Source of the DNA: Pseudomonadota bacterium
GTDB lineage: Bacteria > Verrucomicrobiota > Verrucomicrobiia > Limisphaerales > SXTU01
Assembly (NCBI GenBank): GCA_009922615.1
Contig: RFVF01000019.1
Location: 1-64,000, forward strand
Direction: 5' to 3'
DNA: 64,000 bases
The first letter of the stretch is position 1; every line of letters begins with the position of its first letter. Both the position numbers and the translations under genes were made by a program. Under the pieces are notes generated by a model. That model had not been told where the DNA came from. It saw only the letters and a list, made by a program, of their open reading frames with translations, and made no database searches. Of the stretch, positions 2,153 to 48,036 are shown piece by piece.

Positions 2153-2692
2153 ATGATAATGGCCGACATCCTCAAAATCTTCCTTCTCATCCTCGGCGGC
2201 ATGTTTGTGTTCGTCGCGTTCTGGCTTGCGGGTGAGGCGCTGTTTCCGACCATGGTCGAAAGCGCCCGCCGACAATACCGACGGCCAGGGAAACTCACCT
2301 TCGCCGGGCTCGCGCTCGCCGCGCCGTTCATCGGCATCGCGCTGCTGCTGTTCCAAAAGGGCAACAACCCGCTGTTCAACATCGTGGGCTTCGTTTTCCT
2401 GGCCGTGGTGCTCCTCGGTGGTCACATCGGCTCGGCGGGCTTGGCCAAGCACATCGGCATGGGCCTGCCCGCGCCGGGTGACGACGCGCAGCCGTGGCGG
2501 CGCGTGTTGCGCGGCGGCATCGTGCTGGTGCTGACGTTCCTTCTGCCGTTCATCGGCTGGCTGGGGCTGACGATCTGGACGCTCGTGACGGGCTTCGCCG
2601 CGCTGGTCTTCGCCGTGCGCGAGAGCCGTTCCGCCGTTCCACCGGTGACGACGACCTCCGTGGCCCCGCCCAATCTGCCCGCCGCCGCATGA
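2153..2692 (+). CDS. Small polytopic membrane protein of unknown function
   Basis: A 179-residue protein not recognised as a named family. Hydrophobic segments are visible at about residues 5-28, 49-67, 73-92 and 122-155, giving roughly four membrane spans, with a Pro/Thr/Ala-rich tail that is probably cytoplasmic or disordered. An in-frame ATG six bases downstream (2159) is an equally good start. The stop overlaps the start of the following DUF1800 gene as ATGA, so the two are probably translationally coupled. That makes a link with the DUF1800/DUF1501 pair possible, for example as a membrane anchor or assembly factor, but this is only inferred from spacing. Confidence 0.7.
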   Translation: MIMADILKIFLLILGGMFVFVAFWLAGEALFPTMVESARRQYRRPGKLTFAGLALAAPFIGIALLLFQKGNNPLFNIVGFVFLAVVLLGGHIGSAGLAKHIGMGLPAPGDDAQPWRRVLRGGIVLVLTFLLPFIGWLGLTIWTLVTGFAALVFAVRESRSAVPPVTTTSVAPPNLPAAA

Positions 2693-4215
2693 ACTTCTCT
2701 CGCCGCCACTTCCTTCAGGCCGGCTCCGCCGCGTCGGTCGGCGCGCTCGCCGTCGGCTGCGAAAAGATCGAAGTCCCCGCTGCGCTGCGCATCGGGCCGC
2801 GCACCATCACCATGCCGGAAGGCCCGTTCGCAACGCCCTCCGGCAAAGACATTGACCTCGTTTCGCATGCGTTGAACCGCCTCACCTTCGGCTCGCGCCC
2901 GCAGGACTACCAGCGTGTTCGCAAGCTCGGCGCGACCGAGGAAGCCGCCTTCGCCGCCTTCCTCGACCAGCAGTTCATGCCCGAGCGGCTCGACGACCCC
3001 AACTGCGAGAACGCCATCCGCCGTTTCGAGGTTTTGCAGGAGCCACTGGGCGAGCTCTTCGAGTATCAGGAGAAGCACCTGCTCGATGCCCTCGTCCGCA
3101 GCACCGTGCTGCGCGCCGTCTTCAGCGAGCGGCAGCTCTACGAAGTGATGGTCAATTTCTGGAGCGACCACTTCAACATCGATCCCTCCAAGGGCGACGC
3201 GAAATGGCTCAAAGTCGCCGACGACCGCGACGTCATCCGCGCCCACGCGCTGGGCAAATTCCCAGACATGCTCCGCGCCTCGGCCCTGAGCCCCGCGATG
3301 CTCTGGTATCTCGATGGCCGCGTGAACAAAAAGGCCAGTGCCAGCGACAAGCCCAACGAGAATTACGCCCGCGAACTCATGGAGCTGCACACGCTTGGCG
3401 TCCACGGCGGCTACACGCAGCAAGACGTGATGGAGGTCGCGCGCTGCCTCACCGGCTGGACCGTGCAGGAAACGCACCGCAGCAAACTCAACCTCGGCAG
3501 CGTCGAGTTCCAGCCCTTGCTCCACGATCGCGGCGAAAAGATCGTCCTCGGCCACGTCATCCCGGCGATTCCGAAGAAAGCCAAGCCCGGCGAAATCGAG
3601 CGCCTGGGCCGCGCCGAGCTGGACACCGTGCTGGGCATCGTGGGCCTGCACCCGTCCACCGCGAAGTTCATCGCCACCAAGCTCTGCCAGCGCTTCATCG
3701 CGGACGAGCCGCCCGCCGACGCCGTGAGCGCTGTCGCGGAGAAGTTCATCGCGTCCGGCGGCAACATCCCGGCCACGCTGCGCGCGCTCTTTGCCACCGA
3801 CGCCTTCCTGACCACGCGCGGCAACAAGCTCAAGCGGCCGTTCCACTACATCGTCTCCGCGCTGCGCGCTACGCAAGCCACCACAGACGCGGGCTCCGCG
3901 ATCCAGGACTACCTCTTGCGCATGGGCCACGCGCCCTTCCACTACCCGACGCCCGACGGCTACCCGGAGAAAGCCGCCCCGTGGCTGGGCACGCTGCTCT
4001 GGCGTTGGAACTTCGCCGTCGGCCTGAGCAACAACACCCTCGACAAGGAAACGCAAATCAACCCCGAGAAGCTCAAGGCCAGCTTCGCCACCGAGGAAAA
4101 CCAGATGGCCCACCTCCTCGGCCGCGTCCCGACTGCCGACGAAATCACCGCCTGCAAGGCCTCCGGTGCCCCGCTCGCGCTACTGCTGGCCTCGCCGAGT
4201 TTTCAGAAGTGTTAG
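2689..4215 (+). CDS. DUF1800 family protein, Tat-type lipoprotein
   Basis: About 508 residues. The start at 2689 is chosen because it overlaps the previous stop (ATGA) and gives a Tat motif (SRRHFLQ) followed by a short hydrophobic stretch and a lipobox-like AVGC near residue 20. The body has the features of DUF1800: an LNRLTFG-type motif near the N-terminus, NFWSDHFN in the middle, ENYARELMELHTLGV, and TGW. This family is typically encoded next to DUF1501, as here (4333). Its biochemical role is not established; it is exported and common in Planctomycetota and Verrucomicrobiota. The TAG stop overlaps the left arm of a long hairpin repeat. Confidence 0.88.
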   Translation: MNFSRRHFLQAGSAASVGALAVGCEKIEVPAALRIGPRTITMPEGPFATPSGKDIDLVSHALNRLTFGSRPQDYQRVRKLGATEEAAFAAFLDQQFMPERLDDPNCENAIRRFEVLQEPLGELFEYQEKHLLDALVRSTVLRAVFSERQLYEVMVNFWSDHFNIDPSKGDAKWLKVADDRDVIRAHALGKFPDMLRASALSPAMLWYLDGRVNKKASASDKPNENYARELMELHTLGVHGGYTQQDVMEVARCLTGWTVQETHRSKLNLGSVEFQPLLHDRGEKIVLGHVIPAIPKKAKPGEIERLGRAELDTVLGIVGLHPSTAKFIATKLCQRFIADEPPADAVSAVAEKFIASGGNIPATLRALFATDAFLTTRGNKLKRPFHYIVSALRATQATTDAGSAIQDYLLRMGHAPFHYPTPDGYPEKAAPWLGTLLWRWNFAVGLSNNTLDKETQINPEKLKASFATEENQMAHLLGRVPTADEITACKASGAPLALLLASPSFQKC

Positions 4216-4324
4216 CCACAGATGGGCACAGATGAAACACAGATGAAAATCCGACTTCGCTTGCTTGCGAACGTGCCTGCCGCTGCTTTCCCCATCTGCG
4301 TTTCATCTGTGCCGATCTGTGGCT
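4214..4324. repeat. Long inverted repeat with triple CACAGAT units
   Basis: Two 32-base arms, 4214-4245 and 4293-4324, match at 30 of 32 positions when one is reverse-complemented, with a 47-base spacer. Each arm carries spaced CACAGAT units (left arm units begin at 4217, 4227 and 4238, spacing 10 and 11). The element fills the whole gap between the DUF1800 and DUF1501 genes and includes the upstream stop codon. Transcribed RNA would form a very stable hairpin between the two partner genes. Related elements with CACAGAG units occur at 5460 and 27270. Confidence 0.85.
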
Positions 4325-4332
4325 GAAAAATC

Positions 4333-5454
4333 ATGACCACGCAAACCTCCCTCTCCGGCAACGGCGACCAGCTCAAGACCCTCGTCGTCGTCTTCCTGCG
4401 CGGCGGCGCCGATGGGTTGAACATGGTCGCGCCCACGCACGACGACGGCTATTACCGCGCCCGGCCGCGCATCGCCATCAAGGCCAGCGACGCCACGCGG
4501 CTCGACGGCCAGTTCGGACTCAATCCCTTGCTCGCGGACCTCGCCACGCCGTATCGCGACGGTGCGCTGCTCGTGTTGCACGCGGCGGGCTCGGAGGATG
4601 CCACGCGGTCGCACTTCGAGGCGCAGGACTTGATGGAGCGCGCGGGCGAGGTGGCCGGCGGCTGGCTGGGGCGCTACTTGCGCTTTCGTGGCGCGGTCAC
4701 GTCCGGCGCGCTCTCGGCCATCGCGGTGAGCCGCGCGTTGCCCGAGAGTTTGCGCGGTGCGCCCGCCGCCACGGTGATGCGTTCGCTGGATGACTTCGTG
4801 CTGGGCAAGAACAGCGGCACGTTGCAGGCGGGCCTGAAGAAGCTCTACGCCGCACAGGCCGATGCGCTCGGGGCCTCCGCACGCGACACGCTCGACGCGC
4901 TCGACCGCATTCAGCGCATCCGTGAAACGACTTATGTGCCGGCGGCCGGGGCGAGCTACGACCGCGACGAATTTGCGCAGGGCTTGAAACAGGTCGCGCG
5001 GCTCGTCAAGGCACGCGTCGGCCTCGAAGCCGTTTCGCTGGACCTCAACGGCTGGGACTCGCATCTCACGCAAAGCGCGATCATGGACCCGAACATGCGC
5101 CGGTTAAACGCCGGCTTGAGCGCGTTTTACCGCGATCTGGGCAAACAGATGGAGCACGTCACCGTCGTGGTGATGACGGAGTTTGGCCGGCGGCTCGCCG
5201 AGAATTCCGCCTTCGGCACGGACCACGGGCGCGGCAGCGTGATGTTCGTTTTGGGCGGCGGTGTGCGTGGAGGCCGCGTGCTGACGAAATGGCCCGGCCT
5301 GACCAAGGATGTGCTCGAAGGCCCCGGCGACGTGCCCGTGACCATCAACTACCGCGACGTGCTCGCGCCCATCCTGCAACGGCACAGCCCCCAGGTGGAC
5401 TTGGCGAAGGTGTTCCCGGCCTATGAGCTGAAGCCGCAGGCGGTGTATGGGTGA
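4333..5454 (+). CDS. DUF1501 family protein, partner of DUF1800
   Basis: A 373-residue protein with family features: LRGGADGLN near residues 22-30, GLNPLLADL, and a C-terminal TEFGRRL...GTDHGRG region similar to the alkaline-phosphatase/sulfatase fold seen in this family. Unlike the second DUF1501 gene at 48040, it has no obvious Tat or Sec signal, so it may be exported with its Tat-bearing neighbour or act inside the cell. It follows the DUF1800 gene after a hairpin repeat of 111 bases and is probably co-transcribed with it. The molecular function of this pair is unknown. Confidence 0.87.
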   Translation: MTTQTSLSGNGDQLKTLVVVFLRGGADGLNMVAPTHDDGYYRARPRIAIKASDATRLDGQFGLNPLLADLATPYRDGALLVLHAAGSEDATRSHFEAQDLMERAGEVAGGWLGRYLRFRGAVTSGALSAIAVSRALPESLRGAPAATVMRSLDDFVLGKNSGTLQAGLKKLYAAQADALGASARDTLDALDRIQRIRETTYVPAAGASYDRDEFAQGLKQVARLVKARVGLEAVSLDLNGWDSHLTQSAIMDPNMRRLNAGLSAFYRDLGKQMEHVTVVVMTEFGRRLAENSAFGTDHGRGSVMFVLGGGVRGGRVLTKWPGLTKDVLEGPGDVPVTINYRDVLAPILQRHSPQVDLAKVFPAYELKPQAVYG

Positions 5455-5459
5455 AGATG

Positions 5460-5607
5460 GATTTAACCACAGAGGCACAGAGAGCACAGAGGAAGAGGTT
5501 TCCCGATCACGTTTCCCAATCAAGAAGGCAGTAAAGCAAGAACCGAGCGATTTCCATTCCTGCCTTTATGCCTTCCTGATCCCACTCTGTGCCTCTGTGA
5601 TTAAATC
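5460..5607. repeat. Long inverted repeat with triple CACAGAG units
   Basis: Arms at 5460-5482 and 5585-5607 match at 22 of 23 positions in inverted orientation. The inner part (about 5519-5582) continues as a weaker inverted match, so the whole 148 bases can fold as one hairpin. The left arm has CACAGAG units at 5468, 5476 and 5485. It starts just after the DUF1501 stop (5454) and ends before moeA. It contains no transposase; it resembles a MITE or REP-type element. Confidence 0.83.
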
Positions 5608-5653
5608 CATCGGTGGTGTGGTCCGCATTTGAAACCTGCGAGCGGCCTGCGTC

Positions 5654-22763: not shown

Positions 22764-22874
22764 AAATCTCAAGCTCCAAGCTCCGAAGAAGCGCCAATGA
22801 CCAAACACCGAGCGGGACGAGTGGCTTTGAAGTTATGAGCTTGGGGTTTCTTTGGAGCTTGGAGCTTGGGATTT
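22764..22874. repeat. Inverted repeat built from CAAGCTC heptamers
   Basis: Two 27-base arms, 22764-22790 and 22848-22874, match at 25 of 27 positions in inverted orientation, around a 57-base spacer. Each arm contains two tandem 7-base units (CAAGCTC or its complement GAGCTTG). It fills the gap between the divergent acyl-CoA ligase and RNase D genes. Confidence 0.85.
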
Positions 22875-27197: not shown

Positions 27198-27269
27198 GCG
27201 TGGGCGCGGTTGAACGTGCGGAGAGGAAAGCCTGAAAGCCGGGATGCGTCAATCGCGCCCGGAGTTGGT

Positions 27270-27369
27270 TTCACCACAGAGACACAGACATCACAGAGAA
27301 GAAACGGGAACCGGTGCTTGCCCGCCTCCATTTCGGCGCTCTGTGTGCCCTCTGTGCTTCTGTGGTGAA
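27270..27369. repeat. Inverted repeat with triple CACAGAG units (third copy)
   Basis: Left arm 27270-27298 and right arm 27339-27369 are inverted, imperfect copies ending in TTCACCACAGAG and its complement. CACAGA units begin at 27275, 27283 and 27292 (spacing 8 and 9, as in the 5460 copy). It sits upstream of the catalytic M16 gene and beyond the end of the SDR gene, all on the minus strand, so it could separate the two transcripts. Confidence 0.8.
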
Positions 27370-27378
27370 GTGAACTTG

Positions 27379-44883: not shown

Positions 44884-48036
<3,153 letters not shown>

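Follow-up and report, generated by a model that had tools for sequence, protein, structure and literature searches.

What does a long and nearly perfect inverted repeat do in the narrow gap between two genes? Such a repeat lies between a DUF1800 gene and a DUF1501 gene in the 64,000-nucleotide stretch of DNA analysed here (the window), and a preliminary description had offered two roles for it: setting the ratio of the two proteins through RNA stability, or binding a protein along one face of the DNA. In our reading it probably belongs, as a solo copy (gene-less, MITE-like and non-autonomous), to a selfish family of palindromic elements that is linked to genes for GxxExxY proteins. The relevant features of the window are these:

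2689–4215, plus strand: DUF1800 gene (PF08811, from Pfam; start from a rough codon-model call)
4213–4215, plus strand: DUF1800 TAG stop codon, overlapped by the end of the element (TTAGCC)
4214–4245, plus strand: left arm, AGCC and three CACAGAT units (starts 4217, 4227 and 4238), based on 30/32 pairing and unit matches
4246–4292, no strand assigned: loop of 47 nt ending in TTTCCC, its sequence variable among copies
4293–4324, minus strand: right arm, three minus-strand units within 4294–4321, ending in GGCT
4333–5454, plus strand: DUF1501 gene (PF07394, from Pfam)
5456–5611, no strand assigned: second hairpin of similar build, with CACAGAG units (a different unit family) and an inner AAGGCAG-type repeat, directly behind the DUF1501 stop
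22764–22874, no strand assigned: hairpin with 7-nt units (AAGCTCC), resembling the arms of S23-type (four-helix-bundle) genes
27263–27376, no strand assigned: third hairpin, with CACAGAG units
47353–47433, no strand assigned: hairpin with 7-nt units (GTCGAGG), likewise resembling S23-type arms

The repeat itself was confirmed as first described. Its arms (4214–4245 and 4293–4324) are 32 nt each and complementary at 30/32 positions (94%), the element starts inside the DUF1800 TAG (4213–4215) and ends 8 nt ahead of the DUF1501 ATG (4333), and the left-arm CACAGAT units, said to recur every 10–11 bp, follow one another in steps of 10 and then 11 nt. Folded as RNA, the plus strand reaches -66.3 kcal/mol; its shuffles average -33.5, 0/200 of them are as low, and z is -8.7, while the minus strand gives a z of -7.5. 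The two-unit pattern CACAGATNNNCACAGAT, allowed up to 2 mismatches, matched twice in the 64-kb window, both times within the hairpin, against a shuffle mean of 0.20. By fold shuffles and pattern counts alike, therefore, the hairpin exceeds chance. No Rfam family matched the window at gathering scores, and membership of a known RNA family was dropped on that account. The loop holds no inner repeat by our inner-repeat test. The hairpins on the two sides of DUF1501 belong to different families, with CACAGAT units upstream and CACAGAG units downstream.

Absence of copies elsewhere had been named as the outcome that would speak against the element; we found the opposite. In the genome from which the window comes (its own genome, G000), blastn with the window element returned 26 matches, which resolve into about 20 hairpins, and the two-unit pattern at up to 2 mismatches gave 46 matches as compared to 6 for a reversed-pattern control. 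At up to 1 mismatch the pattern is present in 33/40 genomes searched, the own genome counted. Since copies occur at unrelated junctions, an element specific to DUF1800/DUF1501 was dropped from consideration. The own-genome hairpins share a common design, (T)TTAGCCACAGATGRRCACAGATGAAACACAGATG - loop - inverted arm - CTAAA, in which the arms are conserved and the loops, of 10 to 114 nt, are unrelated in sequence. Of 17 loops taken, 11 are at least 40 nt long; an inverted repeat resembling AGGAAGGC occurs inside 7 of these (counted when at most 3/200 shuffles reached it), which suggests nested hairpins. Each arm resembles the consensus almost as well as it complements its partner: the within-element score was 18.1 against 16.4 across elements, with 61/20,000 permutations as high. 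This small excess suggests that the arms are maintained chiefly as sites, and to a lesser degree for exact pairing as a stem. In some pairs about 500 nt separate the two arms. Among 72,556 plasmid records, sought as pairs with and without the element, only 8 matched each query.

Placement of these copies is far from even. With genes called by a codon model trained on the own genome, a gene stop codon lies within 17 nt of the first unit in 16/19 solo hairpins, and 9 of these 16 stops touch the AGCC end of the element (as TAGCC, TGAGCC, TAAGCC or the like). Only 9.0% of non-coding bases in the window are equally near a stop by a rough gene call, and against the 18% expected for two ends the count of 16/19 has p 7e-10; purging of insertions elsewhere could explain part of this bias, and the controls are without such purging. 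The flanking gene pairs are co-directional in 14/19 cases, one weak call being uncounted. Similarly, at 72/97 elements that carry a gene between their arms, an open reading frame of 100 codons or more ends at the outer edge of an arm (60/928 control positions), and the stop-adjoining ends of these elements are left, or sense, in 63 cases and right in 21 (p 5e-6). At one own-genome hairpin (L051, G000:C261, 13764–13800) and its orthologs, the left end appears to supply the upstream TAG or TGA stop, and the right arm appears to supply the downstream GTG start codon (CTGTGGCTAAAGAA).

Tight stop-to-start placement between mostly co-directional genes (14/19), together with a fold that is very stable on both strands, is what one would expect of the strongest alternative, a host cis-element in the form of an intercistronic RNA hairpin that protects or separates the DUF1800 and DUF1501 parts of the mRNA and so sets their ratio. 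Relatives, in which the preliminary description had suggested looking for a conserved CACAGAT element between DUF1800 and DUF1501, were compared at this junction (G001–G008 and G010). Genome G004 has a hairpin of the window's family at the same spot, its loop unalignable by eye to that of the window, and G006 has a degenerate one, whereas in G008 just 4 nt separate the DUF1800 TAG from the DUF1501 ATG, with no insert, and G002 carries a different family, a AGGAGAGC-type hairpin. Parts of AGGAGAGC-type sequence without a clear second arm stand in G010; in G005 and G007 other arms adjoin DUF1501, the end of DUF1800 not being found within 900 nt, and in G001 and G003 the sequence upstream of DUF1501 differs. 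Four further own-genome junctions were read in relatives, a fifth being unalignable, and here the slots are filled repeatedly: they hold CAC(A/G)GAT hairpins, hairpins of 7-nt units, nothing at all, or a single remaining unit.

That orthologous junctions often hold some hairpin, even one of a different family, favours a host function. So does the observation that the arms of same-slot hairpins resist divergence and can be aligned, while their loops mostly cannot (alignable loops occur in a few pairs, G009/G010 and G007/G010); this could mean selection on the arms for a host function and not recent mobility. Against it stand the same arms at about 20 unrelated junctions, the insert-free junction of G008, the existence of gene-bearing versions, and the several unrelated hairpin families, along with a transposase-like gene with palindromes of its own, that fill the slots in relatives. 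We regard the host cis-element as unlikely. In particular, a purpose-built setter of the DUF1800/DUF1501 ratio, as first proposed, is unlikely because the family is dispersed over unrelated junctions and G008 manages with only 4 nt from stop to start. A side effect of the hairpin on the operon mRNA is possible.

The selfish reading draws on relatives in which the arms enclose a gene. Profile TIGR04256 (GxxExxY) has a match in 17/20 genomes; the own genome, one of these 20 (92.6% complete, in 331 contigs), has none, so its copies may be fossils or be driven by a gene that is missing from the assembly. The window element, with a 47-nt loop and no GxxExxY gene between its arms, is thus the solo form only. 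In G015, by comparison, a GxxExxY gene lies exactly between CACAGAT arms. Gene-bearing members of the window's arm family are L106, from the same genus, L112 (= L194) and L195, on a Limisphaerales contig. The left arm at L195 is letter-identical to window positions 4215–4244 (30 nt), and the TTTCCC that ends the window loop resembles a subterminal TTCCC ahead of the right arm of L106. The L106 element (G008:C25) sits between two genes that we take to resemble a gspE/gspF-type pair.

Such arms flank GxxExxY genes across phyla. We took the 350 nt before each gene and, as reverse complement, the 350 nt after it, and scored their best local match; a threshold of at least 14 was reached at 51/60 GxxExxY loci as compared to 42/480 cross-paired controls and 25/1000 random window intervals. 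A scan of named genomes found arms at 67/78 loci, against 107/624 in a cross-paired control that is high, and not clean, because many loci share one arm family. Ribosomal S10 genes from the same clade had arms in 0/24 cases and DUF1501 genes in 1/10; 9/60 and 11/78 GxxExxY loci fell below the threshold. Going by record titles, those represented among the arm-flanked loci of the 78-locus scan are Verrucomicrobiota, Planctomycetota, Bacteroidota, Desulfuromonadales, Calditrichota, Spirochaetes, Chloroflexi and Proteobacteria, and also Methanosarcinales archaea.

The encoded protein has only about 114 residues and matches both Pfam PDDEXK_3 and NCBIfam GxxExxY. An alignment of 26 sequences shows no variation at G18, E21, Y24, D60, K72, N101 and R111, and either E or D at position 70; D60, E/D70 and K72 are the putative catalytic residues of a predicted PD-(D/E)XK nuclease. 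A search of PDB sequences with one such protein (A1) gave no significant solved relative. An AlphaFold2 model (pLDDT 91) found its best PDB fold matches in 4ic1 (SSO0001, E 1.6e-4), presumably a Cas4, and in lambda exonuclease (E 1.5e-3), and we predict a small nuclease-like protein of the Cas4/lambda-exonuclease kind. The predicted fold and catalytic residues are those of these RecB-like PD-(D/E)XK enzymes; unlike them, the GxxExxY protein is only about 114 residues long and is encoded between arms. A role as a defence gene was dropped, PADLOC having no hit for three proteins. Our literature search, which left most subscription-journal papers and bioRxiv outside its scope, found nothing linking genes for GxxExxY, PDDEXK_3 or four helix bundle proteins to such repeats, nor did the accessions of the families lead to any such paper; in a passage of one paper (PMC8934634), GxxExxY is named only as a gene beside an RT.

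Arm units and protein sequence also vary together. The best lag was 9, 10 or 11 in 196/222 arms of GxxExxY elements, and 7 or 14 in 36/46 arms of genes for S23, the IVS protein. We gave each of 114 GxxExxY loci a unit-type label (GAT, GAG, CAGGAT, AAT, AAG, GAA, GAC or other) and placed the labels on a tree of the 114 proteins, which rests on few columns and has many unresolved forks. The labels required 30 changes, as compared to a shuffled mean of 61.8, with 0/200 shuffles as low; near-copies raise this clustering, and the label groups nevertheless hold across phyla. GAG and AAG arms are without exception confined to one side of a single branch (SH-aLRT 97), and taken singly the labels AAT and 'other' are unclustered (80/500 and 212/500 shuffles as low). 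Arm-unit sequence thus co-segregates with GxxExxY protein phylogeny, as is equally expected if gene and arms merely travel together without binding. Of the two roles first proposed, protein binding along one DNA face appears to fit better than a ratio setter, judging from arms that resemble the consensus almost as well as they complement one another, from the helical-turn spacing of units in gene-bearing relatives too and from arms that follow the protein phylogeny.

Among known systems the nearest analogue of the window element is the IVS/S23 element. The Coxiella IVS is called selfish in PMC4990558, where its terminal inverted repeats are described as making a stem of 28 bp and GACAGAT heptamers, in tandem, as lying ahead of the S23p start codon. 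IVS elements with an S23p gene (TIGR02436/PF05635) share with the present family a small open reading frame between terminal inverted repeats, a long stem and a selfish character, which for the present family is proposed. The S23 genes collected here (L165–L193 and L121–L122) have inverted arms in 26/31 cases, mostly in sense behind a stop, and with a 7-nt period that matches the heptamers given for Coxiella (PMC4990558). Behind a stop codon we found 13/21 S23 elements, 13 by the left end and 1 by the right, as compared to 20/202 control positions. The two designs differ in the protein, S23p being a four-helix bundle and GxxExxY having a PD-(D/E)XK fold; in the unit period, which is 7 nt in S23 arms and 9–11 nt in GxxExxY arms (10 and 11 in the window); and in location, since the published IVS sits in rRNA and the window element between two protein genes.

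If the hairpin were an ordinary MITE derived from a DDE-type insertion sequence, and the GxxExxY gene a frequent passenger, this would also account for dispersed, palindromic, non-coding copies and for gene-bearing relatives that share their ends. In G015, moreover, a CACAGAT hairpin (L274–L288) lies inside a larger dispersed unit with conserved ends of its own, TGAACCTGGAAAAAGCAGTTGAAAC ... GTCTTTCAACTGCCGGATTTAAG, present in at least 10 copies and in both orientations, which shows that other elements can carry hairpins. Yet no transposase gene was found between the arms at the loci read, where GxxExxY genes lie instead, across phyla and with matching units, and the arms are built from repeats spaced at a helical turn. 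Nor did the comparison of filled with empty junctions show a clear target-site duplication; a short TA-like one is possible, and is not demonstrable since the gaps have diverged and the same slots are occupied by different families. We consider a DDE-type MITE quite improbable.

Nearest in economy is REPIN/RAYT. REPs and REPINs spread in trans, and membership of this class would make a Y1 (HUH) transposase the driver of the window element. At L326 (G005:C27), an orthologous junction holds a gene that, by its motif, reads like a RAYT (REP-associated tyrosine transposase); different palindromes, its own, flank it, and six relatives hold CAC(A/G)GAT-like hairpins in that junction. The economy that is shared is one of many short extragenic palindromes and one dedicated small gene (PMC3116915, PMC2817692). 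Published REPs carry a GTAG or CGTC tag at one end of the palindrome, whereas the arms of the window's family end in AGCC...GGCT, consist of three periodic units, are placed at stop codons and enclose a gene of another fold, PD-(D/E)XK and not HUH. REP/RAYT identity is disfavoured on account of the end tags, and we hold it to be very improbable. An intrinsic terminator of DUF1800, to which a stable hairpin immediately after the stop codon might point, was dropped as the least credible reading of all, there being no terminator-like site on either strand and a 47-nt loop with no T-run after the arm in place of a short-loop stem and T-run.

We therefore return to the GxxExxY-linked selfish element, the reading that we consider probable. 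It has the support of dispersed copies, gene-bearing members, pairing of gene and arms across phyla, co-segregation, a placement at stops that is mostly in sense, and one insert-free junction; against it, no transposition event, target-site duplication or cutting was observed. In its complete form the element would consist of an arm of about three 7-nt units spaced 9–11 nt, a small GxxExxY (PDDEXK_3) gene and an inverted arm. The protein, a predicted nuclease, would bind the units on one face of the helix and would cut to copy or insert the element, and solo copies may have been moved in trans or may be remnants. The element would be transcribed as part of an operon mRNA, and disruption of host genes would be avoided because insertion falls, as we infer, in the space that separates one gene's stop codon from the start of the next in an operon. 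If DUF1501 expression is affected at all, this would be incidental.

More tentatively, and with rather more doubt than conviction, we suggest that GxxExxY/PDDEXK_3 could serve as the mobility enzyme for selfish elements of a class so far unrecognised, which is present in some archaea and in many phyla of bacteria. Here a Cas4-like nuclease of about 115 residues would read three helical-turn-spaced units per arm, its specificity co-evolving with the unit, and would insert in sense behind host stops; S23/IVS elements, whose units are of 7 nt and whose protein is a four-helix bundle, might represent a sister design. Such a class would give a testable role to a widespread family of small proteins named only by its motif, and would explain why environmental genomes contain a class of repeats of the CAC(A/G)GA(T/G) type. 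A link would also be made to the IVS/S23 elements, a puzzling feature of rRNA genes. Since a protein family would be paired with its likely DNA site by sequence alone, in more than 100 natural pairs, a recognition code could be read. Finally, this little-studied kind of selfish element, sitting right behind stop codons, points to a stop-codon-proximal niche in which selfish DNA may live inside the operons of compact genomes.
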